Position numbers and translations under genes: made by a program. Below, in pieces: positions 1 to 41,790 of a DNA stretch of 55,768 nucleotides. The stretch spans positions 1 through 55,768 of the forward strand of contig CALWGA010000040.1 of NCBI GenBank assembly GCA_944377825.1, written 5' to 3'. Within the stretch, counting starts at the first letter, position 1; every line of letters starts with the position of its first letter. Origin of the DNA: an uncultured Clostridia bacterium. GTDB lineage: Bacteria > Bacillota > Clostridia > Christensenellales > UBA1242. The notes under the pieces are model-generated. The model was not told the DNA's origin. It did no database searches and was given only the letters and a program-made list of their open reading frames with translations.

Positions 1-2
1 TG

Positions 3-356
3 CGAGCACCGGCACTTGAAGAATATGATGTTTGTAAAAATGACACTCTAGAAAATTGGAAAGAAATGATTGAATGTTTAGACAGTGGCAAAAACTATTT
101 TAGAGATAATATGGAAGTTGAAACATCAATGCTTGAAGATTATTTTAAATTTGATATATTTAATCATCTTAACATCAAAGAAGATGTAAAACTTATCTAT
201 TGTAGCGAAGATATTTCTGTGAGCAATGACAACATTTTCAAGTTAGCAAAATTAAAAAATTGGGAATTGTTTGAAGTTAAAGGTGCCGACCATTTTTGCA
301 GACGAGAACAAGATATTGAAAGAATAACAAACTTGTTTCTTGATATTTTGAAATGA
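3..356 (+). CDS. C-terminal part of an alpha/beta hydrolase (5' end outside window)
   Basis: The frame is open from the first bases of the window, so this is the tail of a longer gene; an internal ATG at 66 is not needed as a start. About 117 residues remain. The fragment has the look of the end of an alpha/beta hydrolase: a hydrophobic strand followed by an acidic residue (LIYCSEDISV), then a strand and GADHF, where the His would be the catalytic base. The nucleophile region lies outside the window, so substrate and class cannot be told. No terminator is obvious; the downstream gap carries a hairpin repeat. Confidence 0.6.
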   Translation, partial: RAPALEEYDVCKNDTLENWKEMIECLDSGKNYFRDNMEVETSMLEDYFKFDIFNHLNIKEDVKLIYCSEDISVSNDNIFKLAKLKNWELFEVKGADHFCRREQDIERITNLFLDILK

Positions 357-409
357 TTGATAAAAAATTATATTGATTGATTTATTTAATAAGGCACTTT
401 TTATTTCAA

Positions 410-492
410 CATAATAAATCTATCCACAACTCTTCACTGAACGCGACGAGCGTTTCTTCGCTGGAAGGCTTGCCTTCCCTTCTCTTTTCACT
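410..492 (+). repeat. Dispersed hairpin-array element, copy A
   Basis: The head CATAATAAATCTATCCAC is followed by CTTCACT (432-438), a 17-nt hairpin (439-455, stem GAACGC/GCGTTT), the spacer CTTCGCT (456-462), a second hairpin (463-478, perfect 7-bp stem GGAAGGC/GCCTTCC) and the tail CTCTTTTCACTT. The repeat unit is 24 nt. The same architecture with other stem sequences occurs inverted at 1081-1163 and again at 4709-4810. No family name is known to me. Confidence 0.7.
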
Positions 493-539
493 TTTTTTGA
501 TTCTATTCTAAAAGAGTTTTTATTTGAATAAAATATTCT

Positions 540-1076
540 ATGAAAAAGGGTTCGGTTCGGTGGGCATTTAAAGTCTTTGTGCTGTCACTGTCGCTTTCCA
601 TTGTTTTTAGTTTAATGTCGCAGAGTTTGTTGCCGACATTATCTTCTTTTTTCTCTATCTTTGTAATTATCTTTTTCATCTTTGTGGCGGTGGTGTTTGA
701 CATGATCGCGGTTGCTTTCACAACGATAAACGAAGATAAACTCTTGCCATACAAAGACAAAAAGGGCTACAATATGGCTCTCTCGCTATGTCGAAATGCT
801 GACAAGGTTTCCTCTTTCGGCGGAGATGTTGTGGGAGATATTTGCGGAATTTTGAGTGGAGCGGGCGGTGTGAGTTTAGTTCTCAACATGCACCTTGAAG
901 GCGAACAAGTTAACCTTCTTGTGACTTGCTTAGTAAGCAGTCTTATTGCGGGAATAACAATCTTTTGCAAGGCAATCATGAAAAGTTATTCCATTGAAAA
1001 TTGCGCTAAAATCGCCATAAAAACCGGCTCATATTTAGAGTTTGGTAGAAAAAAAGAAAAGAATAAAAAACATTAG
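540..1076 (+). CDS. Conserved small membrane protein of unknown function
   Basis: The protein has 178 residues with about four hydrophobic segments: roughly residues 8-27, 36-60, 95-115 and 123-145. Between the second and third lies a polar stretch with NADKVSSFGGDVVGDICG, which resembles an uncharacterised clostridial membrane family as I remember it; I cannot name a domain. The C-terminus is very basic (GRKKEKNKKH), consistent with a cytoplasmic end. There is no clear Shine-Dalgarno before the ATG. The gene sits exactly between two hairpin-array repeats in opposite orientation (410-492 and 1081-1163), so it may have moved as a unit with them; that is inference. Confidence 0.6.
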   Translation: MKKGSVRWAFKVFVLSLSLSIVFSLMSQSLLPTLSSFFSIFVIIFFIFVAVVFDMIAVAFTTINEDKLLPYKDKKGYNMALSLCRNADKVSSFGGDVVGDICGILSGAGGVSLVLNMHLEGEQVNLLVTCLVSSLIAGITIFCKAIMKSYSIENCAKIAIKTGSYLEFGRKKEKNKKH

Positions 1077-1080
1077 GACA

Positions 1081-1163
1081 AAGTGAATACAAAAAAAGGA
1101 AGAGTGAAGAGTTAAGGCGAACCGCTGGTTCGCAGTGAAGAACTGTGGAAGATTTTAAAATAG
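1081..1163 (-). repeat. Dispersed hairpin-array element, copy B (inverted)
   Basis: Read on the minus strand it begins with a head similar to copy A (TTTTAAAATCTTCCACAG), then CTTCACT (1140-1134), a perfect hairpin (1133-1117, stem GCGAACC/GGTTCGC, loop AGC), a degenerate spacer CTTAACT and a further CTTCACT (1109-1103). It is the inverted partner of copy A across the membrane-protein gene at 540-1076. Confidence 0.7.
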
Positions 1164-1185
1164 AATATCATTTCTTTATTAAAAC

Positions 1186-1500
1186 CACATTTCTCACAAC
1201 GCCACACTTTCAAACTCTCAATCAATTTTTGATTTTGTGAGAGGAAGGGCTTTGCCCGGCGAGCATAAATCAAAAATCACAAATGTGGCACTCCGAAAAT
1301 GTTTATCATTTTTGGAGATAAGGAGTAAACAAACGAATGGTAAGTGATTTGACGTATGGCAAATCACGAAATGAAGTGCTGTTTACGACGCGGAAGAGGA
1401 ATGGGATGAGAAACCAACGGAGTAGCGGTTAGAAAAATTTTAATTTTTCGTGCCCGCGTTAAGCAAAGTTGGTGTCCGCACCAAAATTTGCTTTACAAAG
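1186..1500 (+). repeat. Structured dispersed repeat (about 300 bp), copy 1
   Basis: This stretch has no coding sequence but matches 41431-41690 in reverse orientation over nearly its whole length. It is a chain of hairpins: GGGC-TTT-GCCC (1247-1257); CTCCGAAAATG/CATTTTTGGAG (1291-1317); GTGATTTG/CAAATCAC (1344-1367); GAAAAATT/AATTTTTC (1432-1449); GGTG/CACC (1471-1482). Comparing the copies, the stems survive while loops differ, and one stem has a changed but still paired sequence. The -35 box of the next gene begins right at its end. Confidence 0.75.
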
Positions 1501-1520
1501 CGTTTTTAAAATGCTATAAT
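1492..1520 (+). promoter_or_regulatory. Sigma-A-type promoter of the permease gene, giving a leaderless transcript
   Basis: TTTACA at 1492-1497, a 17-bp spacer and TATAAT at 1515-1520. The expected transcription start (about 7 bases on) coincides with the ATG at 1528, and no Shine-Dalgarno is present. Confidence 0.65.
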
Positions 1521-1527
1521 ACCATGT

Positions 1528-2544
1528 ATGGAAAATTTTTATGATGCAATTTTGGATGCGTTAGTGGATGTTTTCAAGATGATGCCTATTCTCTTTTTGG
1601 CATATCTTCTTGTTTCATACCTTTCGCACGACCATAATCATAAATTTTATGGCTTTCTCAGCAAAAAGAAAAGAACAAGCGTACTTTACGCTTCTTTTTT
1701 GGGTTGCATTCCACAGTGCGGTTTCAGTTCTGTTATTGCTGACCTATATTCAAGGCAAAAGGTGACACTCGGCACGCTGGTTGCGGTGTTTGTGGCAACA
1801 AGTGATGAGGCAATTCCAATCATGATTGCCACGCCGAGCCAAATTTTAAATATGCTCCTTTTAATCGGCATAAAGATAGTTTTGGCGCTTCTTTGGGGCT
1901 ATGGCATCGACTTTGTGGTGGAAATTTGCTCTAAATTAAAAAAGAAAAAGGTGGCAAATGCTACGGCAAAAAAGTTAGACGAAAACGCTAGCGGAACAAA
2001 GGAGTTTTCTCATGCGGAAAATGACCATGTCGACAGTCACGAGTTAAGCGAAGATCACCACCACATACACGAGTGCGGACATATACACAGTGACACCTGC
2101 GACGAGCATTGCCACCATGACGAACAATGCTGTGTTGACAACATCTTTTTGGATGCCTTTAAGCATACATTGGAGATTGCTATCTATGTTTTCATTGCAA
2201 CTTTTATCATAAATCTACTTATCAACTATTTCACGCTTGACATCTTCACAACAATTTTAACCGACAATGGTATTATTCAAATTCTTATCGCGTGCGTGGT
2301 TGGGCTTATTCCAAACTGCGCTTCATCTGTTTTACTTGTCGAACTCTTCACGGTTGGCGCGCTTTCATTTCCAGCACTTGTTGCGGGACTTTCGACAGGC
2401 GCAGGCGTGGGACTTATCATTCTTATTACCAAAAACAAGCATCCACTTAAAAACATCGGCATCCTTTTCTTGCAGTTCTCTATCGGTGTTGTAAGTGGTT
2501 TGATAATTTATGGCATATTTGAACTTTGCGGATTTACATTATAA
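1528..2544 (+). CDS. Heavy-metal exporter-like permease (ArsP_2 / putative manganese transporter family)
   Basis: The protein has 338 residues and probably eight to ten membrane segments in two similar halves. Each half carries a Pro-x-Cys motif at the start of a helix: GCIPQCGFSSV near residue 60 and GLIPNCASSV near 259, so the fold looks internally duplicated. Between the halves lies a cytoplasmic-type loop (about residues 158-203) very rich in His, Cys, Asp and Glu (for example EDHHHIHECGHIH), a likely metal-binding segment. This fits the family annotated as putative manganese transporter or arsenic efflux protein (Pfam ArsP_2), from memory. The metal cannot be told. The gene stands alone with its own promoter and is apparently translated from a leaderless mRNA. 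Confidence 0.75.
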   Translation: MENFYDAILDALVDVFKMMPILFLAYLLVSYLSHDHNHKFYGFLSKKKRTSVLYASFLGCIPQCGFSSVIADLYSRQKVTLGTLVAVFVATSDEAIPIMIATPSQILNMLLLIGIKIVLALLWGYGIDFVVEICSKLKKKKVANATAKKLDENASGTKEFSHAENDHVDSHELSEDHHHIHECGHIHSDTCDEHCHHDEQCCVDNIFLDAFKHTLEIAIYVFIATFIINLLINYFTLDIFTTILTDNGIIQILIACVVGLIPNCASSVLLVELFTVGALSFPALVAGLSTGAGVGLIILITKNKHPLKNIGILFLQFSIGVVSGLIIYGIFELCGFTL

Positions 2545-2931
2545 TGATATTGTTTTTTACTTTATAGAAAAGTAAAGACAACTTTATAAATTATATTAAA
2601 TATCCAATAAACATCCAAAATTAGTTTGGTTTGTTTGGGTGACAATGCCACTTTCTATAAAATAGTTTCTTAATTAAAAATCATAAAATGTGACAATGTC
2701 ACAAATTTGTGTTGAAAAACGCTTGCAAAATCTATTTTTATATGTTATAATCATTTCGTCATTGGACAAATAAGCACTCAAAGCAAATTTTTAAACAGGT
2801 TGCCTGAACGCTTGCAAACTTTGGTTATTTATCTTAATTTTTGAATTTGTTTGCAGGTAAAAGAGTAATCTTGGGTTGGTTTAAAGAGTTAAAACTTTGG
2901 GGAAGGACAAAAACTAGGAGGTAAAAAAATT
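2545..2931 (+). promoter_or_regulatory. Intergenic region with rpsB promoter and long 5' leader
   Basis: A promoter is visible at 2723-2751 (TTGCAA, 17-bp spacer, TATAAT), leaving a leader of about 170 nt before rpsB. An S2-binding autoregulatory leader would be expected in this place from other bacteria, but I could not fold a convincing structure by eye. The first 180 bases hold nothing recognisable. Confidence 0.6.
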
Positions 2932-3837
2932 ATGTCAGTTATTTCAATGAAACAACTTCTTGAGGCTGGTGTTCATTTCGGTCACCAAACAAGAAAGTGG
3001 AACCCTAAGATGAAGGAATACATCTTCACTGCAAGAAATGATATTCACATCTTAAATCTGGAACTCACATCAGAGCAAATCGACAAGGCATACAGTTTTG
3101 TTCGCGATGTTGTGACTTCTGGAAAGAGCGTGCTTTTTGTTGGAACAAAGAAGCAGGCACAAGAGGCAGTTAAAGAGGAGGCAGAGCGTTGCGGAATGTT
3201 CTACATCAACACTCGTTGGCTCGGCGGAACTTTAACTAACTTTAAAACAATTAGAAACAGAATTGAGAGATTAAACAAACTCAATCAAATGGAAAAGGTG
3301 GGCGAGTTCGACCTTCTTCCAAAGAAAGAAGTTGCTCTTTTAAAGCAAGAAAGAGACAAACTCGAAAAGAATCTCGGCGGAATTAAGGATATGCATGAAC
3401 TGCCAGGCGTGTTATTCGTTGTTGACCCAACCAACGAAAAAATCTGCGTTCATGAAGCAAACATCCTAAACATTCCAGTTGTATCACTTGTTGACACAAA
3501 CTGCGACCCATCAAATGTCACAGTGGTTATTCCTGGAAATGATGACGCTATCCGCTCTGTTAAACTCATTGCAAGCGCGATTGCAGACGCTGTTATCGAA
3601 GCAGGAGAGGGCGTTTCCATGCAGAAGAACGAAGAAGAGGAAGACGAGAAGGTTGACCTTGAAAGTTTACTCACAGAGGCAAAGCCTAGTCTAGAACTTG
3701 CCGAGGCAGGCGAGGAGGTTAAAAAGAAAAAGCCTAAGAAAAAACCTGCTAAAAAGGCAGAAAAGACCGAGAAAACAGAAGAAAAGAAAGAAGATGTAAA
3801 AGAAGAAAAAGTTGAAGAAAATAAGGACGCTGAATAG
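2932..3837 (+). CDS. rpsB: 30S ribosomal protein S2
   Basis: S2 of the small ribosomal subunit binds late in assembly near the head and helps recruit S1. The start ([20 protein letters not shown]) and the internal [15 protein letters not shown] are unmistakable S2 signatures. The ATG follows a strong AGGAGG at 8-base distance. The protein has 301 residues instead of about 230-260: the globular domain ends near residue 226 (EAGEGVSM), and a tail of about 75 residues rich in Lys and Glu follows ([15 protein letters not shown] and repeats). It is co-transcribed with tsf 23 bases downstream, the usual pairing. Confidence 0.97.
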
Positions 3838-3860
3838 TCCTATTTAAAAGGAGATTGATT

Positions 3861-4520
3861 ATGAATTTTACTGCACAAGATGTTGCAAAATTAAGACAAC
3901 AAACAGGCGTTGGCATGATGGAATGCAAAAAGGCGCTTACTGATGCTAACGGAGATTTTGAGAAGGCAATCGTTCTTCTTCGTGAAAGAGGACTTAAAGC
4001 CGTTGATAAAAAGCAAAACAGAATTGCATCTGAGGGGCTTGTTGCTTCTTACATTCACATGGGTGGAAAGATTGGAGTTTTGGTTGAAGTTAACTGCGAA
4101 ACAGACTTCGTGGCAAAGAGCGATGATTTCCAAGTTTTAGTTAAGGATATCGCTATGCAAATCGCTGCTGCAAACCCAAAATATGTTCGTGAAGAGGAGG
4201 TAGACCCAGCGGAACTTGAAAGCGAAAAGGAAATTTTGAAGGTGCAAGCGCTTAACGAAGGTAAACCTGCAAACATCGTTGAAAGAATGATTGAAGGAAG
4301 AATTAAAAAGTATTATGAAGAGGTATGCCTTCTTGACCAACCATTCGTGAAGGATAGCAGTAAAAAAATTAAAGATATCTTGACCGAGGCAACTCTAAAA
4401 ATCGGCGAAAAAATCTCAGTTAGACGTTTTGTTCGTTACGAACTTGGCGAGGGACTCGAAAAGAGAAATGATAATCTTGCAGAAGAAGTTGCAAAACAAG
4501 TTGCAAGCGTAAATAAATAA
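3861..4520 (+). CDS. tsf: Translation elongation factor Ts
   Basis: EF-Ts is the guanine nucleotide exchange factor for EF-Tu. The N-terminal UBA-like domain (TAQDVAKLRQQTGVGMMECKK) and the signature EVNCETDFVAKSDDF are clear. With 219 residues this is the short bacterial form, containing one core dimerisation subdomain plus the C-terminal module. The ATG at 3861 is chosen because AAGGAG lies 8 bases upstream; an in-frame TTG at 3855 is too close to that site. It is the second gene of the rpsB operon and is followed at once by an intrinsic terminator. Confidence 0.96.
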   Translation: MNFTAQDVAKLRQQTGVGMMECKKALTDANGDFEKAIVLLRERGLKAVDKKQNRIASEGLVASYIHMGGKIGVLVEVNCETDFVAKSDDFQVLVKDIAMQIAAANPKYVREEEVDPAELESEKEILKVQALNEGKPANIVERMIEGRIKKYYEEVCLLDQPFVKDSSKKIKDILTEATLKIGEKISVRRFVRYELGEGLEKRNDNLAEEVAKQVASVNK

Positions 4521-4521
4521 G

Positions 4522-4552
4522 AAAAAAGGATAGAAAACTTCTATCCTTTTTT
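4522..4552 (+). terminator. Intrinsic terminator of rpsB-tsf
   Basis: The stem GGATAGAA/TTCTATCC has a 3-base loop and is flanked by A6 and T6, two bases after the tsf stop. Confidence 0.85.
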
Positions 4553-4810
4553 AGTGAAGAGTGAGAGAAAAAGGAAGAAGTAAAAGTGAAGAGTTTTAGA
4601 CAGTATTACTTATGATTGCAGGACAAAACACTCACAAAATTGAAATATTTTAGAGTGCGAGGATATCGTCTTTGAAAAAAAATGGTTTTGGTTTATATAT
4701 TAAAAGCATTATAAAATCTTTCCACCACTGAAAATCTTTGATTTTCCTTCACTGTGAACCCATGGTTCACCTTCACTAGAAGTCGCAAGACTTCTCTTCA
4801 CTTTTCACTT
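4553..4810 (+). repeat. Hairpin-array element, copy C (three-unit array at 4709-4810)
   Basis: The core at 4709-4810 has the head CATTATAAAATCTTTCCAC, then three perfect hairpins, each followed by CTTCACT: GAAAATC-TTT-GATTTTC (4730-4746), GTGAACC-CAT-GGTTCAC (4754-4770) and AGAAGTC-GCAA-GACTTCT (4778-4795), at a 24-nt period. On the left, inverted AGTGAAG copies occur at 4553-4559 and 4585-4591, so the whole 258-bp block is bounded by inverted 7-mers. The 115 bases between hold nothing recognisable. This fills the gap between the tsf terminator and rpmB. Confidence 0.75.
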
Positions 4811-4814
4811 TAAT

Positions 4815-4848
4815 AAAAAAAGTTGAACGAGCATAGTTCAACTTTTTT
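4815..4848. terminator. Bidirectional terminator at the 3' end of rpmB
   Basis: The stem GTTGAAC/GTTCAAC is extended by A7 and T6 runs on the two sides, with a 7-base loop. It works as a terminator for rpmB on the minus strand and would also stop plus-strand transcription. Confidence 0.8.
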
Positions 4849-5023
4849 AGTTAGCCTTTTTGTTTGCGGTTTTGATGCATTTTGTGCAAGCCTTAACTCT
4901 CTTTCCGTTAATTTCTGTTTCTTGAAGATTAGCATCATATTTTCTATTAGCCTTGTTGTTTGCATGGCTGACAGTTTTTCCGTCCATCTTGCCTTTTCCG
5001 CAGATTTCACAAACTCTACTCAT
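4847..5023 (-). CDS. rpmB: 50S ribosomal protein L28
   Basis: This 58-residue minus-strand gene starts MSRVCEICGKGKMDGKTVSH and continues with KRVKACTKCIK before a short basic end. It is L28 of the large subunit. The four Cys (5, 8, 46, 49) form the zinc-binding pairs of the Cys-type L28 usual in Clostridia. GGAG and AAGGA lie just upstream of the ATG, and a promoter is found at 5060-5088. Divergent orientation to yloU-fakA is the standard Firmicutes arrangement. A longer open frame over the same bases on this strand is only a shadow. Confidence 0.95.
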   Translation of the reverse strand: MSRVCEICGKGKMDGKTVSHANNKANRKYDANLQETEINGKRVKACTKCIKTANKKAN

Positions 5024-5059
5024 TTCCTTTCTCCTTTTATGATTTTATTTACGCGTTTT

Positions 5060-5088
5060 ATTTTAGCACACTTTTATAAAAAAATCAA
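5060..5088 (-). promoter_or_regulatory. Promoter of rpmB
   Basis: Read on the minus strand: TTGATT (5088-5083), a 17-bp spacer, TAAAAT (5065-5060). The leader to the ATG is about 30 nt. Confidence 0.65.
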
Positions 5089-5339
5089 CTATTTTTTCCA
5101 TTTAGTTGTTAAAAATTATCTACTAAGCCAAATTTTCTTAATAGTTGATAGTGAAAGAGGTGTGACAAATATGAATAATTGGTTATTATCAAGGCATATA
5201 AAGTATTAAGCGTAGGAGAATTTTTGACAGTTTTTGAAAGCGCAGATTTTGGTAAATTTTACAAATTAAAACAATATATTTAAACTTAAAAATATTTTGA
5301 AATATTTTTGAAAAAAATATATTTTTTATTTGATTTTGC

Positions 5340-5368
5340 TTGCGAAAATTTATCATATGTTGTATGAT
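5340..5368 (+). promoter_or_regulatory. Promoter of yloU-fakA
   Basis: TTGCGA at 5340-5345, a 17-bp spacer and TATGAT at 5363-5368. The rest of the 451-base gap between rpmB and this operon (5024-5474) is AT-rich with no other signal that I can see. Confidence 0.6.
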
Positions 5369-5474
5369 ATAGATAGGCAATAGTATTTTGAGTTTTCAAG
5401 ATTTTTAAATATGCCTAGTGAACATAGAGAGTTTTCATTCTATGTTTCAAGCATTGTTCTATCGGAGGAAACTT

Positions 5475-5825
5475 TTGACAGTAGACACTAAAAACTATTA
5501 TGGCAATATCTCAATTAGCGACAAGGCGATACGCACTGTCGCTGGTTTTGTTGCATTGGATTGTTATGGTGTTGTCGACCTTGTTTCCAAGAGCGTTAGA
5601 GACAGTGCACGAGAATTATTCAAAAAGGAATCCTATTCGCGCGGGGTTTCAGTAAATCATATCGACAACCGCATATTCATTGACATACACTGTATCTTGA
5701 AATATGGCGTTTCTATTTCTGCGGTTGCTGAATCACTTAAAAAATCAGTTAAATACTCAGTTGAAAATTTCACAGGTATGATTGTTGACACTGTGAATGT
5801 TCATGTTGTGGGTGTTAGGGTTTAG
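5475..5825 (+). CDS. Asp23/Gls24 family envelope-stress protein (YloU-like)
   Basis: The protein has about 116 residues with the Asp23/Gls24 pattern: GNISISDKAIRTVAGFVALDCYGV at the start, a basic middle, and IDIHCILKYGVSISAVAESL leading to the closing valine-rich strand (VNVHVVGVRV). The family is linked to the membrane and cell-wall stress in Firmicutes; the precise role is unknown. I take the TTG at 5475 as start because GGAGG lies 6 bases upstream; the frame is open from 5418, but that stretch has no ribosome binding site and does not look like the family. It lies 12 bases before fakA, the usual pair. Confidence 0.85.
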   Translation: MTVDTKNYYGNISISDKAIRTVAGFVALDCYGVVDLVSKSVRDSARELFKKESYSRGVSVNHIDNRIFIDIHCILKYGVSISAVAESLKKSVKYSVENFTGMIVDTVNVHVVGVRV

Positions 5826-5837
5826 GAGTTAACTATT

Positions 5838-7472
5838 ATGCAGAAAACGATTAATGGTGCGTCCTTTCGCAAGATGGTGCTTGCAGGGGTTAGCCTTTTA
5901 GAGCAAAATAAAGAATATATTGATTCGCTTAACGTCTTTCCAGTTCCTGATGGCGACACTGGGACAAATATGTTTCTAACGATGAAGTCCGCGATGACCG
6001 AGATAAACAAATGCATGAATAACGACATGTCCGCTCTCTCTGAGGCGTTCAGCAAGGGTGCTCTTCGTGGTGCGAGAGGCAATAGTGGCGTTATCACATC
6101 TCAAATCTTCAAGGGCTTTTGCTCTGTGACTAAGAATTGTAAGGAGATAACCACCAAAGATTTTGCAAAGGCTATGCAGGAAGGCGCGACCATTGCCTAT
6201 AAGGCGGTCACAAAGCCAAAGGAAGGCACAATATTGACTGTCATCAGAGTTATGGCAGAGAATGCCGTCGCACTTGCAAAAAGGCATGAGGACTTTGAGG
6301 TTTTCTTAAAGAAAGTCATCGACACTGGCGAAGAGATATTGAAGCAGACACCTGAGATGCTTCCTGTGCTTAAAAAGGCAGGGGTTGTGGACTCTGGTGG
6401 ACGTGGTATCCTTGTTATCTTCACAGGTTTTTATCGATACATCATGGGCGACGAGGATCTTGAGATGACTTTTGAGGACGACAAACAGCCTCAAACCTTA
6501 GACGATGTTATTGCCGACATCAACAACCTTGGCGACATCGAGTTTGGTTACTGCACTGAGTATATGATTATCCATATGCACAAAAAGACCACTGAGGTCG
6601 ATATTGATAAACTTCGTGAGAAACTTATGGAGATTGGCGACTCGGTTATTTGCATCGGCGACCTATCTCTTGTGAAAGTCCATGTTCACACCAACGAGCC
6701 GAACAAGGCACTCGGCTATGCGCTGGAACTTGGCGAACTTTTCAACTTGAAGATTGAAAATATGCGTGAGCAGAACCGCGAACTTAAGAAAAAGGCGCAG
6801 GCGGTGGAAGAGAGTAAGGAAATCGGCATGATTGCAGTCGCTCCAGGCGAAGGACTTGCTTCTATTTTCAAAGATTTAACAGTAGACGAAATCATCGTCG
6901 GCGGTCAGACCATGAATCCTAGTGCTGAGGACATTGCAACGGCGGCAGACAAAGTGCCAGCAAGAACGGTCTTTGTTTTCCCTAATAATAAGAACATCGT
7001 TTTGGCAGCAGAGCAAGCCAACGATGTGACAAACAAGAATTTGGTTATCATTCCAACCAAGAGCGTGCCAGAGGGCATTTCGGCGGCTATCGCATTTAAT
7101 CCAGAGGCAAGTGTGGAAGAAAATAAAACCGCCATGCTTGATGCGATTAAGTCGGTGCGTTCTGGTCAGGTGACTTATGCCGTTCGTGACACGCATGTTG
7201 ACGGCTTTGACCTAAGAAAAGGCGAGATAATTGGGCTTGACGATAAGGCAATTTTGGCAAAAGGCAACTTGGTGGGCGACACAACCGAAAAACTCATCGA
7301 ATCCATGTTTGATGACAGCATAATCAACATCACTTTGTTCTATGGCGGGGACATTCGCGAGGAAGAGGCAAACGAACTTCAAGGAAAGTTAGCCGAGAAA
7401 TATCCAGAGTGCGAGGTGACAGTGGCATATGGCGGTCAGCCAGTATATTACTACATTATTTCGCTTGAATAG
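5838..7472 (+). CDS. fakA: Fatty acid kinase catalytic subunit (DAK2 domain, YloV/FakA)
   Basis: FakA phosphorylates fatty acids delivered by a FakB (DegV-type) carrier, feeding exogenous fatty acids into phospholipid synthesis. The N-terminal DhaL/DAK2 nucleotide-binding domain shows NVFPVPDGDTGTNM with the metal-binding Asp residues, then GARGNSGVITSQIFKG; the C-terminal half carries the FakA-specific domains (ending EVTVAYGGQPVYYYIISLE). The length of 544 residues fits the family. No fakB is in the window. The operon with yloU ends at a strong terminator 20 bases after the stop. Confidence 0.93.
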   Translation: MQKTINGASFRKMVLAGVSLLEQNKEYIDSLNVFPVPDGDTGTNMFLTMKSAMTEINKCMNNDMSALSEAFSKGALRGARGNSGVITSQIFKGFCSVTKNCKEITTKDFAKAMQEGATIAYKAVTKPKEGTILTVIRVMAENAVALAKRHEDFEVFLKKVIDTGEEILKQTPEMLPVLKKAGVVDSGGRGILVIFTGFYRYIMGDEDLEMTFEDDKQPQTLDDVIADINNLGDIEFGYCTEYMIIHMHKKTTEVDIDKLREKLMEIGDSVICIGDLSLVKVHVHTNEPNKALGYALELGELFNLKIENMREQNRELKKKAQAVEESKEIGMIAVAPGEGLASIFKDLTVDEIIVGGQTMNPSAEDIATAADKVPARTVFVFPNNKNIVLAAEQANDVTNKNLVIIPTKSVPEGISAAIAFNPEASVEENKTAMLDAIKSVRSGQVTYAVRDTHVDGFDLRKGEIIGLDDKAILAKGNLVGDTTEKLIESMFDDSIINITLFYGGDIREEEANELQGKLAEKYPECEVTVAYGGQPVYYYIISLE

Positions 7473-7491
7473 TTATCTTTTAATAAGTTTA

Positions 7492-7518
7492 AAGCATCCG
7501 ATTCGGATGCTTGTTTTT
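7492..7518 (+). terminator. Intrinsic terminator after fakA
   Basis: The stem AAGCATCCG/CGGATGCTT has a 3-base loop and is followed by GTTTTT. Confidence 0.85.
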
Positions 7519-7632
7519 ACTCAAAATCGAATATAATAAATTTGGTTCTTAAAGTCTTAAACTAATTTTTTGCGTTAAATAAAAAATGTGGTAACTGATG
7601 TAAATTTAAAAAGAAAATTTAATATATTGCTA

Positions 7633-7660
7633 TTGACATTTTCGATTTTTGTGTTAAAAT
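7633..7660 (+). promoter_or_regulatory. Promoter of the 632-residue unknown protein
   Basis: TTGACA at 7633-7638, a 16-bp spacer and TAAAAT at 7655-7660, with AAAAGGGG as ribosome binding site shortly before the ATG. Confidence 0.65.
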
Positions 7661-7678
7661 ATCTTAAAAGGGGTAAAT

Positions 7679-9577
7679 ATGGAAAACCTTTCAAAAGATA
7701 TTGTAGCAATCGCTGTTAAATATTTTAATATGAGTGAAGAAGAGGCGGTTTCTGCTCTTAATAAAGCGAGAAAAAGGGCTAATTATAGTGAAGAAATTTT
7801 ATATTTAATTTTAACTGCAGTCGAGCCATATTTTGAAAGATATATCAATGTGACGGCTAAAGAACTACAAAGAAAAATCGGAAGGGTGGCGTTTACCAAA
7901 ATAAATTATTCCGCTTTGCATGATAATAGCGAAACATCATCACAAGTTTGGTCAAGACTCAAGGACTTTTTTAAAGACACGAGTAATTATGGCATAAATC
8001 CATACGAAATTTTCTATTCTTCAGTTATCACAAACGCACATTTATTTACAAATAGAGAAGGAAATTTCAGTAATTATAAAGAGACAATATACAATTTTAA
8101 CGCTGTTTCAAGTGCAATAGAAAAACGATTAGGTTTGGCAAGTAAAAAGGTTGCTAATATGTATGAGAAATGCTCTTCGCTTTGCTATAAGGCTGACACG
8201 CTAAAGGTGAGAAATAATTACAGCACTATTAGAGAGTTTTTCTATGGCGATGACTACATATTAAGTATTATTGATGTTAAGGAAATTTTTAGAAATAATC
8301 CCTCTCTTTTCACTTGCTCCGATCGTCAAATAAGAAATGCCTTTTTCTATTTAACCGAAAAAGCAGAGATTTTTAAAACAAGGTTTGAAGATAGTCGAAA
8401 GGTCGGCGAGATTCTTCGTGAGTGGATTATGAGTAACTCCTCTGCTCTCACAATTAACGAACAATGTATGCGAGTCAAAGAGAAGAGAATTTATGACACT
8501 TTATCAAAAGTTTATCCGCAAGATAAGGTTATGAATATAATAAATTCCATATTTGAAAATCCAACCAGCATTTGCGCCATCAATAAAATCTCATCTGACT
8601 TTTTCTACGGCAAAACTGGTAACAACTATGTTGGTGTGATAAAGACGATTGCCTATTTTTTGGATAATTCTCAAAACGGCAAGCCAAAAGAGAATACATA
8701 TAACTATCTTTTGAACACCAAACTTCTCTATTCTGTCGACTATAAAAAACTCTTTGCCTTTCTTAAAAAGGTTAAGGAATATGATGAGAAAAACAAGACT
8801 GAACTTTTGAAATCGTTTACAGATAAGGGCGACGCCATATATCCATATTTCGAGAAATATAGCGATGAAGAGATAATTGAGAAACTTAGAGCGAATAAAA
8901 TTACATATCCTATCAAACTCTACAACATGACAAAAAATATGATTGCGCAAAAGTTTTATGAGATTTTTTCGCCATATCCAGAAGAGAGTTTTGCTTTTTT
9001 AGAAAAATTATTGCATGAGAATTACAATCATGAGGCTATCTGCAAAAATTTGGCTGAGCCTGAAGGATATCTTGACCTTATCATTGAGTCTAAGGATAGT
9101 CATCAAAGGGTGTTTTATACCGAGATGTTAAAAAGTGGCGTCGATAGCTTTTTGGGTGTGTGCCATGAGTATGAATACAAGTATATCAAAAAAAGCTTAA
9201 TAGAGGAAATGAAAGATTTTGACTCGCAGGTTGAATTTTTTATTTCTAACATCGATGACCTTTATGAGAAAGGCGTTGACTCGGCGAAGAAAAGGTATGA
9301 TAATATTGAAACTTTATACGCCACATTTAAGAAGAATACGGAAGAAAAGTTATCTAAAAATAATAATCCAATTCTAAGGCAAGAGCAGTTTTTAGAAAAG
9401 TTAGACGGCGTGATTGAAGGTATTAAAAAATCGCTTCCAGACAAGCAACTTTCCTTGTATGACACAAAAGTGAGTGAAGATGATGAAAAATATAAAACTC
9501 TTCAAATACTAAACGATGTTAAACATAGTTTAATGCGTAATTTTGGAAAAGATGAAAAAATAAAAGAAAAGGCTTGA
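7679..9577 (+). CDS. Large alpha-helical protein of unknown function
   Basis: The protein has 632 residues, no signal peptide and no membrane segment. It is rich in Lys, Glu, Tyr, Phe and Asn and appears almost entirely helical. Loose repeats can be seen in the middle, of the form 'NPslf..s...i..affyL': FRNNPSLFTCSDRQIRNAFFYL (residues ~203-223) and a later FENPTSICAINKI with IAYFLDN following. This spacing recalls mTERF-like or other helical-repeat nucleic-acid-binding proteins, but the resemblance is weak and by eye only. I do not recognise catalytic motifs. It is monocistronic with its own promoter and terminator and is more AT-rich than its neighbours. Confidence 0.7.
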   Translation: MENLSKDIVAIAVKYFNMSEEEAVSALNKARKRANYSEEILYLILTAVEPYFERYINVTAKELQRKIGRVAFTKINYSALHDNSETSSQVWSRLKDFFKDTSNYGINPYEIFYSSVITNAHLFTNREGNFSNYKETIYNFNAVSSAIEKRLGLASKKVANMYEKCSSLCYKADTLKVRNNYSTIREFFYGDDYILSIIDVKEIFRNNPSLFTCSDRQIRNAFFYLTEKAEIFKTRFEDSRKVGEILREWIMSNSSALTINEQCMRVKEKRIYDTLSKVYPQDKVMNIINSIFENPTSICAINKISSDFFYGKTGNNYVGVIKTIAYFLDNSQNGKPKENTYNYLLNTKLLYSVDYKKLFAFLKKVKEYDEKNKTELLKSFTDKGDAIYPYFEKYSDEEIIEKLRANKITYPIKLYNMTKNMIAQKFYEIFSPYPEESFAFLEKLLHENYNHEAICKNLAEPEGYLDLIIESKDSHQRVFYTEMLKSGVDSFLGVCHEYEYKYIKKSLIEEMKDFDSQVEFFISNIDDLYEKGVDSAKKRYDNIETLYATFKKNTEEKLSKNNNPILRQEQFLEKLDGVIEGIKKSLPDKQLSLYDTKVSEDDEKYKTLQILNDVKHSLMRNFGKDEKIKEKA

Positions 9578-28188: not shown

Positions 28189-28424
28189 GTAAAAACGATG
28201 ATGAAAGACTAGTAGGTTTGTCATTTTTCCACAGAGAGCCCTTTTTGCTGAGATAGGGCGAAAAACACAAATTGAATTCACTTTCTAGTTGCTCCTTGAA
28301 CGGAAAACAAGTAGGGGATGTCGCGCGGGCAGGCGTAATTGCTTTAATAAGGTGCCTTTTGGCATGAAATTAGGTGGTACCACGATTTGATAATCGTCCT
28401 AATATTTTGGGGCGATTTTTTTAA
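28189..28424 (+). promoter_or_regulatory. T-box leader of pheST, Phe specifier
   Basis: The leader ends in the T-box sequence AGGTGGTACCACG (28372-28384) and the competing terminator AATCGTCC/GGGGCGATT with a T7 run (28392-28422). Upstream the AGTAG of stem I (28211-28215) and a specifier region GAATTCACT with TTC (28277-28279), a Phe codon, fit the downstream genes. Uncharged tRNA-Phe is expected to favour read-through into pheS. Confidence 0.88.
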
Positions 28425-40431: not shown

Positions 40432-41430
40432 ATGGAAGATAGATTTATAACAAGCACAAAGAATTTTACTGATGCTGAGATTGAAACTTCGCTTCGACCA
40501 ACAAGCCTAGATCAATATGTTGGACAAGATAAAATTAAGGAAAGTTTGAAGGTCTACATTCAGGCGGCAAAGTCGCGTAAGGATGCACTCGACCACGTGC
40601 TTTTATATGGTCCACCAGGCTTAGGTAAGACAACACTTTCGCACATTATTGCGAAGGAACTAGGCTCGCAAATCAAAATCACATCAGGTCCTGCCATTGA
40701 GCATGCTGCCGACCTTGCGGCGATACTGACCAATCTTAACAAAAATGATGTTTTGTTTATCGACGAAATTCATAGGCTAAATAAGACCGTTGAGGAAATT
40801 CTCTATCCTGCCATGGAAGATTTCGCGCTTGATTTTATTGTCGGCAAAGGTCCATCGGCGAAGAATATGCGACTTAAAATTCAACCTTTCACGCTTATCG
40901 GCGCGACCACAAAGGCGGGTATGCTGACAAGTCCACTCCGCGATAGGTTTGGCGTTATCTGCAGGCTCGAATTATATTCAGACAAAGACCTACAAATCAT
41001 CATTAAGCGTTCGGCTGAGATTTTGAATATCAAAATTGACGAAAGTGCCAGCCTTGACATCGCAAAGCGTTCGCGCGGAACACCAAGAATTGCTAATCGT
41101 CTTTTAAAGCGTGTTAGAGATTACGCCGAAGTTTTGGGCAGTGGCGAGATAACAAAGGAGATAACCGACCAAGCGCTTGCAAAAATGGAAATTGACGAAC
41201 TTGGGCTTGACTTTATCGACAGAAAGATACTTGAAAGCATAATCTACAAATTCGGTGGCGGACCTGTGGGACTCGACACGCTGTCGGCGACCATTGGCGA
41301 AGATGCAGGCACGATTGAAGATGTCTATGAGCCATATTTGATGCAATTAGGATTTATTGCAAGAACCCCACGCGGGCGTATTGCAATGGAAAACGCATAT
41401 CATCATCTTGGACTAGACTACAACAAATGA
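40432..41430 (+). CDS. ruvB: Holliday junction branch migration helicase RuvB
   Basis: This AAA+ motor drives branch migration. The 332 residues carry [20 protein letters not shown], Walker [17 protein letters not shown], Walker [13 protein letters not shown], the arginine-finger region [13 protein letters not shown] and the C-terminal winged helix ([13 protein letters not shown]). A copy of the structured dispersed repeat begins within three bases after the stop, so it is part of the 3' end of this transcript. Confidence 0.97.
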
Positions 41431-41690
41431 TTGGTGCGGACACCAACTACGCTTTTACGCCGGCACGGAAAATTAAAAATTTTTCTAACGGTTGCTCCGA
41501 TGGTTTCGCAATCCTCTTCGGCGTCATAAACGGCACTTCATTTCGTGATTTGTCTTACACCAAATCACTTACCATTCGTTTGTTTACTCCTTATCTCCAA
41601 AAATGGCATTTTCGGAGTGCCACATTTTGAGATTTTTGATTTATGCTCGTTGAACACAGTTCTACACTTCGCAAAATCAAAAATTGAATA
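41431..41690 (-). repeat. Structured dispersed repeat (about 300 bp), copy 2
   Basis: This is the reverse-oriented match of 1186-1500. Hairpins, plus-strand coordinates: GGTG-CGGA-CACC (41433-41444); GGAAAATT/AATTTTTC (41467-41485); GTGATTTG-TCTTACAC-CAAATCAC (41545-41568); CTCCAAAAATG/CATTTTCGGAG (41595-41617); GAAC-ACA-GTTC (41652-41662). The last replaces GGGC/GCCC of copy 1 at the same place. The remaining 100 bases to queA are AT-rich and hold nothing I recognise. A 67-codon open frame across the repeat is not a gene. Confidence 0.75.
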
Positions 41691-41790
41691 AATATAAACA
41701 AAAACACTTTAATATTATATTTAAACATAGAACAAAGCACAGTTTGTTACCAAGAATTAGGATTTTTTGATAGAATACAAAAGGAACATT

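Follow-up and report, generated by a model that had tools for sequence, protein, structure and literature searches.

CTTCACT hairpin arrays in Clostridia: possible arms of a MITE-like DNA repeat, with kinship to the Gut-1 RNA family

Overview

The window analysed here, a stretch of 55,768 nucleotides from an uncultured Clostridia bacterium (GCA_944377825.1, contig CALWGA010000040.1), contains arrays of short hairpins whose stems vary from one unit to the next while the 7-nt spacer that joins them, CTTCACT, stays fixed. Such arrays recur many times in the same genome and, where two of them are found close together on opposite strands, they stand head to head around a core. We tentatively read them, at a little less than an even chance, as the arms of a dispersed, non-coding, MITE-like mobile repeat that folds as DNA, because of their copy number, this head-to-head layout, the covariation of the stems, the copying and turnover of whole arrays and the rule that their tetraloops follow. 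The arrays are relatives in architecture of Gut-1, a family listed in Rfam as an RNA, and the chief alternative to the DNA reading is that they act as RNA at the 3' ends of genes.

The arrays in the window

The array reported in the first-pass annotation lies between a tsf-like and an rpmB-like ORF (Table 1), the former with a match in 60 of 61 genomes of the genus. On direct reading the three perfect 7-bp hairpins that had been described, each followed by CTTCACT, are present (4730-4802), while the 24-nt period given for them holds for the first spacing only, the second being 25 nt since the third hairpin is 18 nt long. The 5' neighbour of hairpin 1 is CCACCACT instead of CTTCACT, again on direct reading. 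Two other copies, A and B, had been said to share the head and the spacer, which is borne out; some of their spacers (CTTCGCT, CTTCTCT and CTTAACT) are degenerate. One outer stem pair of array A is G-T, and the first spacer of array B lies 27 bp past an ORF whose end is at 1076.

Table 1. Positions of the arrays, their parts and their neighbours in the window
Feature	Position	Strand	Description
Reported array	4721-4809	+	Head, three 7-bp hairpins, three CTTCACT spacers, tail; sequence read directly
Head of reported array	4721-4729		TCCACCACT
Hairpin 1	4730-4746		GAAAATC-TTT-GATTTTC; then CTTCACT 4747-4753
Hairpin 2	4754-4770		GTGAACC-CAT-GGTTCAC; then CTTCACT 4771-4777
Hairpin 3	4778-4795		AGAAGTC-GCAA-GACTTCT; then CTTCACT 4796-4802
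Tail of reported array	4803-4809		TTTCACT
Array A	421-492	+	Two hairpins between head TATCCACAACT and tail TTTCACT, on spacers CTTCACT/CTTCGCT/CTTCTCT; a script assigned head and orientation
Array B	1103-1151	-	Minus-strand sequence CTTCACT-GCGAACC-AGC-GGTTCGC-CTTAACT-CTTCACT; its head CTTCCACAGTT occupies 1141-1151
Fourth, degenerate array	4553-4591	-	On the tsf side; tail adjoins the tsf terminator; faces the reported array head-to-head
AT-rich core	4592-4720	n/a	Separates the two head-to-head arrays of the tsf-rpmB interval
tsf-like ORF	3855-4520	+	Left neighbour; putative translation elongation factor Ts, named by eye
rpmB-like ORF	4852-5023	-	Right neighbour; putative ribosomal protein L28, named by eye

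Two other elements were noticed in the window. A T-box leader lies at 28189-28404 (108.5 bits), and another interspersed repeat, roughly 300 bp long and with the blocks GGAGTAAACAAACGAATGG and CGAAATGAAGTGC, occupies 1178-1490 and 41423-41720. This repeat adjoins several CTTCACT arrays in the window's own genome and at the relative locus L118 (80-83% over 256-308 bp).

Abundance and stem rules

The window contains 20 copies of CTTCACT where 6.55 are expected, and 0 of 100 shuffles reached the observed number. The window's own genome (G000; 852,688 bases, 76% complete) holds 50 exact pairs of the form CTTCACT-N15-20-CTTCACT, 25 on each strand and a few of them enclosing no hairpin, while the reversed pattern used as a control gave 0. 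A congener, G061, which is outside the set of 61 relatives, holds 124 spaced pairs. The arrays are thus found at many more than three loci. Among 129 distinct inter-spacer units, drawn from fetched stretches of the congeners G000, G061 and G030, 90 form perfect stems of at least 6 bp, whereas 200 shuffles gave 0.445 on average and never more than 3. The stems are therefore far from what shuffled sequence gives, and the earlier proposal of a fixed spacer with palindromes that vary under pressure to stay self-complementary stands.

The stems are not unrelated to each other, as had been supposed, for their arms obey G-N-R-A-R-N-C. The 44 distinct 17-mers whose 7-bp stems are perfect have G at arm position 1 in 42 cases, A at position 4 in 42 and C at position 7 in 43, and 43 of the 44 have purines at positions 3 and 5. 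The remaining two positions were counted in 77 distinct 17-mers: at position 2 the pairs are AT 20, CG 19, GC 17 and TA 11 (67 of 77 paired), and at position 6 they are CG 44, GC 15, TA 11 and AT 4 (74 of 77 paired). From these pair counts and the arm consensus, the unit can therefore be written CTTCACT-GNRARNC-NNN-GNYTYNC, in which the free positions vary jointly on the two arms; the variation of the stems is compensatory.

Matches with two spacers were found in 10 of the 61 relatives and are palindromic, by eye, in seven (G000, G011, G020, G030, G045, G048 and G052) but not in G001, G007 and G036. Neither of the congeners G070 and G031 has spaced CTTCACT pairs, and neither of the two matches in G065 is palindromic. 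Matches with three spacers, not all of them clean hairpins by eye (G333), are present in 17 of 396 genomes of the order, the control giving 0. A scan of named genomes returned at least 119 stretches; 16 of these 119 are palindromic over at least 5 bp in each of their two units, and among the matches listed nine of these 16 come from Clostridia or Oscillospiraceae MAGs.

Layout of the unit

An array on the opposite strand lies within 400 bp on the head side of 22 of 45 arrays in G000 and 13 of 43 in G061, whereas on the tail side there is none within that distance in either genome (0 of 45 and 0 of 43). The restriction of facing arrays to the head side therefore defines the full unit as tail-array-head-core-head-array-tail, in which the two arrays are inverted, AGTGAAG facing CTTCACT, and the heads form inverted repeats around the core. 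Many arrays are single in the data seen, a facing partner being present for 35 of 88. The gaps between 25 facing pairs range from 6 to 417 bp, 16 of the 25 falling at 97-218 bp, and most are AT-rich with head repeats at their ends. The head has the form TCCACAACT and variants of it, and its consensus centres on taAA-ttTTCCaCAACT in 71 distinct heads, which were retrieved by a pattern that itself fixes part of this consensus. In its terminal inverted repeats, short length, lack of coding sequence and many copies, the unit resembles a MITE.

Tails, but not heads, lie near genes, at a median of 33 bp from 3' ends in G000 and 32 bp in G061, often at about 30 bp or less from the stop (with a crude ORF caller), and of 76 placed arrays 49 have their tails facing gene 3' ends and 27 facing 5' ends (p 0.015). 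Replication strand shows no bias in G000 (21 vs 24) and a weak one in G061 (14 vs 29, p 0.03).

A near-perfect palindrome around GTGTAnTATGCA..TGCATAnTACAC was also observed in or beside some array units (L020, L062, L065, L118 and L402) and looks like a putative recombinase or regulator site.

Relation to Gut-1 RNA

The first-pass annotation knew of no named family for these arrays. One relative does exist in Rfam, Gut-1 (RF01706, class sRNA), although the window arrays do not match its model. Gut-1 consists of three variable hairpins joined by an invariant 7-nt spacer (GUGAAAU), and the window arrays are likewise built of variable hairpins on a constant 7-nt single-stranded spacer. They differ in the sequence of that spacer (AGTGAAG/CTTCACT), in stems that are mostly longer and in having another head. 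In Rfam one half only is represented, modelled as RNA and on the opposite strand. In the accessible part of its original description, Gut-1 is named among the motifs most likely to be expressed as non-coding RNAs and is reported from the human gut only (Weinberg 2010, PMC2864571).

Several stretches from named genomes read CAACTAAG-stem-[GTGAAG-hairpin]n-stem'-CTTAA-[CTTCACT-hairpin]n, and such elements are often located directly 3' of a terminator-like hairpin or a tRNA gene. When L128 was searched with cmscan against RF01706, the score was 57.4 bits for the left half (gathering threshold 50) and 32.4 bits for the right, which matched on the opposite strand; five others (L032, L094, L187, L180 and L199) matched below the cut-off and L060 did not match. 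Among the 61 relatives, RF01706 matches only G045 (52 matches), G048 (29) and G052 (13), which are also the only three of 24 genomes from other families that have CTTCACT pairs. The spacers of the two halves go together, GTGAAAT on the left with ATTTCAC/T on the right, and GTGATATT with AATATCAC. These linked spacers and shared genomes argue that Gut-1 amounts to half of this architecture, built on a sister spacer, and that it is a repeat of high copy number, not one small RNA gene. In the window, bases 1-9000 gave no Gut-1 match even at E 5, and G000 as a whole gave 0; its arrays are therefore kin in architecture and not members of the family.

Two further observations were made with the Gut-1 model and its elements. 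Those of Gut-1 type in L032, L106, L134, L172 and L205 begin with CAACTAA or AACTAA directly after a terminator-like hairpin with a T-tract, often a short distance behind a tRNA gene, which suggests a target preference. The control genome of E. coli also contains RF01706 matches below the cut-off, which are perhaps REP-like repeats.

DNA or RNA hairpins

The loops, mismatches and folding energies were compared on the two strands. The first five sets, with duplicates removed, provide 216 distinct perfect hairpins read on the CTTCACT-type strand, 194 of which have a C-G closing pair. Their tetraloops are of the form G..A in 48 of 66 cases and T..C in none, their triloops G..A in 51 of 126 and T..C in 3. 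RNA tetraloops of the GNRA kind prefer a purine at the third place, and this is not the rule followed here, since the third base of the GNNA loops is A in 18, T in 18, C in 11 and G in 1. Adjacent double mismatches are G.A/A.G in 6 of 8. A 'GNA or GNNA loop (N = A, G, C or T)' with G-C pairs is described, in the accessible portion of one account, as giving extraordinarily stable DNA mini-hairpins (PMC4686876), and the available text of another gives a C-G closing preference for d(GNA) loops (PMC5815330).

A second set from other genomes, two of which seem to be conspecific with L141 and L178, yielded 45 further units once 16 that recurred in the first sets had been removed. In these the tetraloops are again G..A (6 of 10) and never T..C, the closing pair is C-G in 28 of 30 and tandem GA is seen in 3 of 5, but the triloop rule fails (G..A in 2 of 17, with A..A 6 and T..T 5). 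The window's genus itself fits the rule in its tetraloops (G..A in 18 of 26) and goes against it in its triloops (G..A in 11 of 54, A..C 12, T..T 10); the triloop rule holds in other families and not in this genus; of the three loops of the reported array, one (GCAA) obeys. The asymmetry of the loops could be partly inherited.

If the hairpins were transcribed, G.U might be tolerated on one of the strands. Single mismatches of the wobble type are not biased towards either strand, whether in the window's genus (A.C 15, G.T 10) or in the other sets. Nearest-neighbour energies for 132 units, CTTCACT strand against AGTGAAG strand, are -7.37 vs -8.11 kcal/mol as RNA and -5.06 vs -5.15 kcal/mol as DNA, a comparison that slightly favours the AGTGAAG strand and is mildly against a DNA reading of the CTTCACT strand. 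Taken together, loops, mismatches and energies appear to favour DNA over RNA, short of proof.

Copying and turnover

Arrays of at least two spacers were compared at the corresponding sites of relatives with 64-96% identity in aligned blocks, and in 17 of 28 array-bearing gap comparisons, some sites being compared with two relatives, the array is present in one relative only. Arrays also change in length, the orthologous array of L073 and L177 having four spacers in the former and one in the latter, and in L411 a whole block is tandemly duplicated. Copying within a genome is seen in G309, where the same four-unit array stands at two loci with unlike flanks (91% over 103 bp), the order of its units kept and one stem differing by G-C to A-T on both sides; G214 and G249 contain similar array copies. 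An exchange of palindromes as modules, which had been proposed earlier, is not the sole process, since here a multi-unit array has been carried over in order and a stem has changed in a paired manner. No clean empty site was found and no target-site duplication established, the intergenic DNA of these relatives being too diverged for a clean comparison.

At the tsf-rpmB site, the homology of the window with L165 ends at 4559 and resumes at 4811, where the array of L165 is longer and is accompanied by a gene of about 1 kb that is absent from the window and that reads, by eye, like a putative family 2 glycosyltransferase. The interval was also observed to be a site of gene turnover: the window has no gene there, L165 and G061 have a glycosyltransferase-like gene (by eye), and in G030 and G070 another gene follows tsf (by eye). 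Size differences of at least 500 bp were counted in 8 of 28 array gaps and 4 of 39 others, which is not significant (Fisher p 0.10).

Candidate enzymes and carriers

The first-pass annotation had advised looking for a co-occurring transposase or RNA-binding partner. Y1 transposases (PF01797) have no match in the seven genomes of the 61-genome search, from which G061 is absent, that carry palindromic arrays (G000, 76% complete; G030, 99%; G052, listed as 100%; and G011, G020, G045 and G048), and match 10 others of the 61. A Y1/RAYT and IS200 partner was rejected on this lack of co-occurrence. Reverse transcriptase (PF00078) matches 14 of the 61 genomes but, among array genomes, only G011 and G048, being absent from G000, G020, G030, G045 and G052, and a group II intron, retron or other reverse-transcriptase element was likewise rejected. 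The Y2 family of IS91 type (PF04986) gave 0 matches in the 61 genomes, the control genomes being silent too. No autonomous parent of the repeat was found. In viral records both units are palindromic in 0 of 29 CTTCACT stretches (the scan also returned 55 CTTCATT stretches, the palindrome check matching CTTCACT only), and one G061 element had no blastn match in phage and plasmid records; therefore no carrier was seen.

Competing explanations

On the reading of the arrays as arms of a MITE-like DNA repeat, the hairpins would be kept because they fold as DNA, either single-stranded at the fork or as extruded cruciforms, a trans-acting enzyme would read hairpin and spacer and move or copy the unit, and the Gut-1 'RNA' would be half of a sister family, annotated on the strand opposite to the one with the DNA-stable loops. 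The lack of an enzyme, a target-site duplication and a carrier, the failure of the triloop rule and the energies count against this reading, as does the excess of tails at gene 3' ends, because an RNA role would give the same. Such a role, the main rival, has the AGTGAAG strand transcribed from the neighbouring gene as a structured RNA, acting at the mRNA 3' end (stability or control of decay) or as a small RNA. With 49 of 76 tails at 3' ends (p 0.015), AGTGAAG would be the sense strand there, as it is in the Gut-1 model; the energy models slightly favour this strand, and the sRNA listing of Gut-1 in Rfam and its naming in the work already cited point the same way. We nevertheless consider it unlikely: the strand bias expected of wobble pairs is absent, the AGTGAAG strand would have U-N-N-C tetraloops and U.C tandem mismatches, any one transcript through a head-to-head unit would read half of the hairpins reversed, and 13-52 Gut-1 matches per genome in three genomes seem difficult to reconcile with it. 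The arrays might also be a functionless neutral product in which template switching (quasipalindrome correction) maintains the stems and slippage on the spacer makes arrays grow, and the gain and loss of units at orthologous arrays (four spacers in L073, one in L177) and the tandem duplication in L411 are in keeping with this. It is improbable in our view, as it leaves unexplained a spacer fixed across families, the G-N-R-A-R-N-C arms, the tetraloop rule and its strand, and the head-to-head unit.

That the arrays are boundaries of exchangeable gene cassettes, whether integron-like or produced by array-array recombination, with the genes between heads as cargo, is less probable still. A gene lies between arrays at tsf-rpmB in L165 and G061 and not in the window, ATP-grasp-like (L177) and hydrolase-like (L073) genes (by eye) lie between arrays in one relative only, and gaps that hold arrays show differences of at least 500 bp more often than the others do (8 of 28 vs 4 of 39). 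Array-free gaps also show gene turnover, however, common arrays make such flanking expected and, because the gene-sized excess at array gaps is not significant (Fisher p 0.10), cassettes are not claimed. We give the slimmest chance to repeats of the REP/BIME type that a RAYT-like or IS200/IS605-like Y1 (HUH) transposase moves by acting on single-stranded hairpins: the general logic of a single-stranded hairpin with a short unpaired tag is the same, as far as the accessible part of the source describes it (PMC3733652), but none of the seven array-bearing genomes in the set of 61 has a PF01797 match. To return to the MITE-like DNA reading, a bolder form of it, which we regard as rather doubtful, would make the arrays a novel class of mobile DNA repeat in Clostridia, with Gut-1 as a mis-assigned half of it. 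An enzyme neither Y1 nor reverse transcriptase would read extruded hairpins by their shape (the C-GNNA-G loop and tandem G.A) together with the short spacer, leaving the stems free to drift in sequence under a structure that is kept, and would copy whole arrays between intergenic sites. The mobile element or protein-binding DNA array suggested at first pass was a fair guess.

Relation to known systems and significance

Palindromic interspersed repeats are a known kind, to which REP and BOX belong; within one REP family, stems generally keep one sequence. In integron attC sites the sequence varies while a conserved DNA hairpin is read on one strand, but no tandem cassette array was seen here. 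REP of E. coli, as set out in the accessible text, are single-stranded hairpins with a short tag that are cleaved by RAYT, and they occur as dimers and arrays; like the window arrays, they and BIME are short palindromes of intergenic DNA that carry a constant unpaired tag and occur singly, as inverted pairs or in arrays (PMC3733652). The window arrays depart from them in a constant tag that is CTTCACT and not GTAG or CGTC, and in the absence of Y1 from the genomes tested. BOX elements of Streptococcus pneumoniae, in the part of the description available, have ends and a variable number of central modules, features of a MITE and an intergenic location (PMC3049150). Their boxB modules, however, copy one sequence (a single model) and are not variable palindromes on a fixed spacer. 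In a survey of candidate RNAs from the human microbiome, 250 of 3161 were palindromic, 20 of these being not terminator-like and possibly REP; existing Rfam families had been removed and the accessible text does not mention Gut-1 (Fremin and Bhatt 2021, PMC8040213). These candidates are palindromic, like the arrays here. In the literature searched, mostly without subscription papers and some of it available in part, there is no description of arrays with a fixed spacer, drifting stems and tetraloops of a DNA type, or of a tie to Gut-1.

These findings tie an orphan Rfam family, listed as a candidate RNA of the human gut only, to a widespread high-copy genomic repeat, and the loop rule, the choice of strand and the wobble bias provide sequence-level tests that can tell whether hairpins are selected as DNA or as RNA. 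Should the DNA reading be true, a hairpin-reading enzyme would be there to be found in Clostridia, and other metagenomic 'structured RNA' candidates would merit the same re-check.
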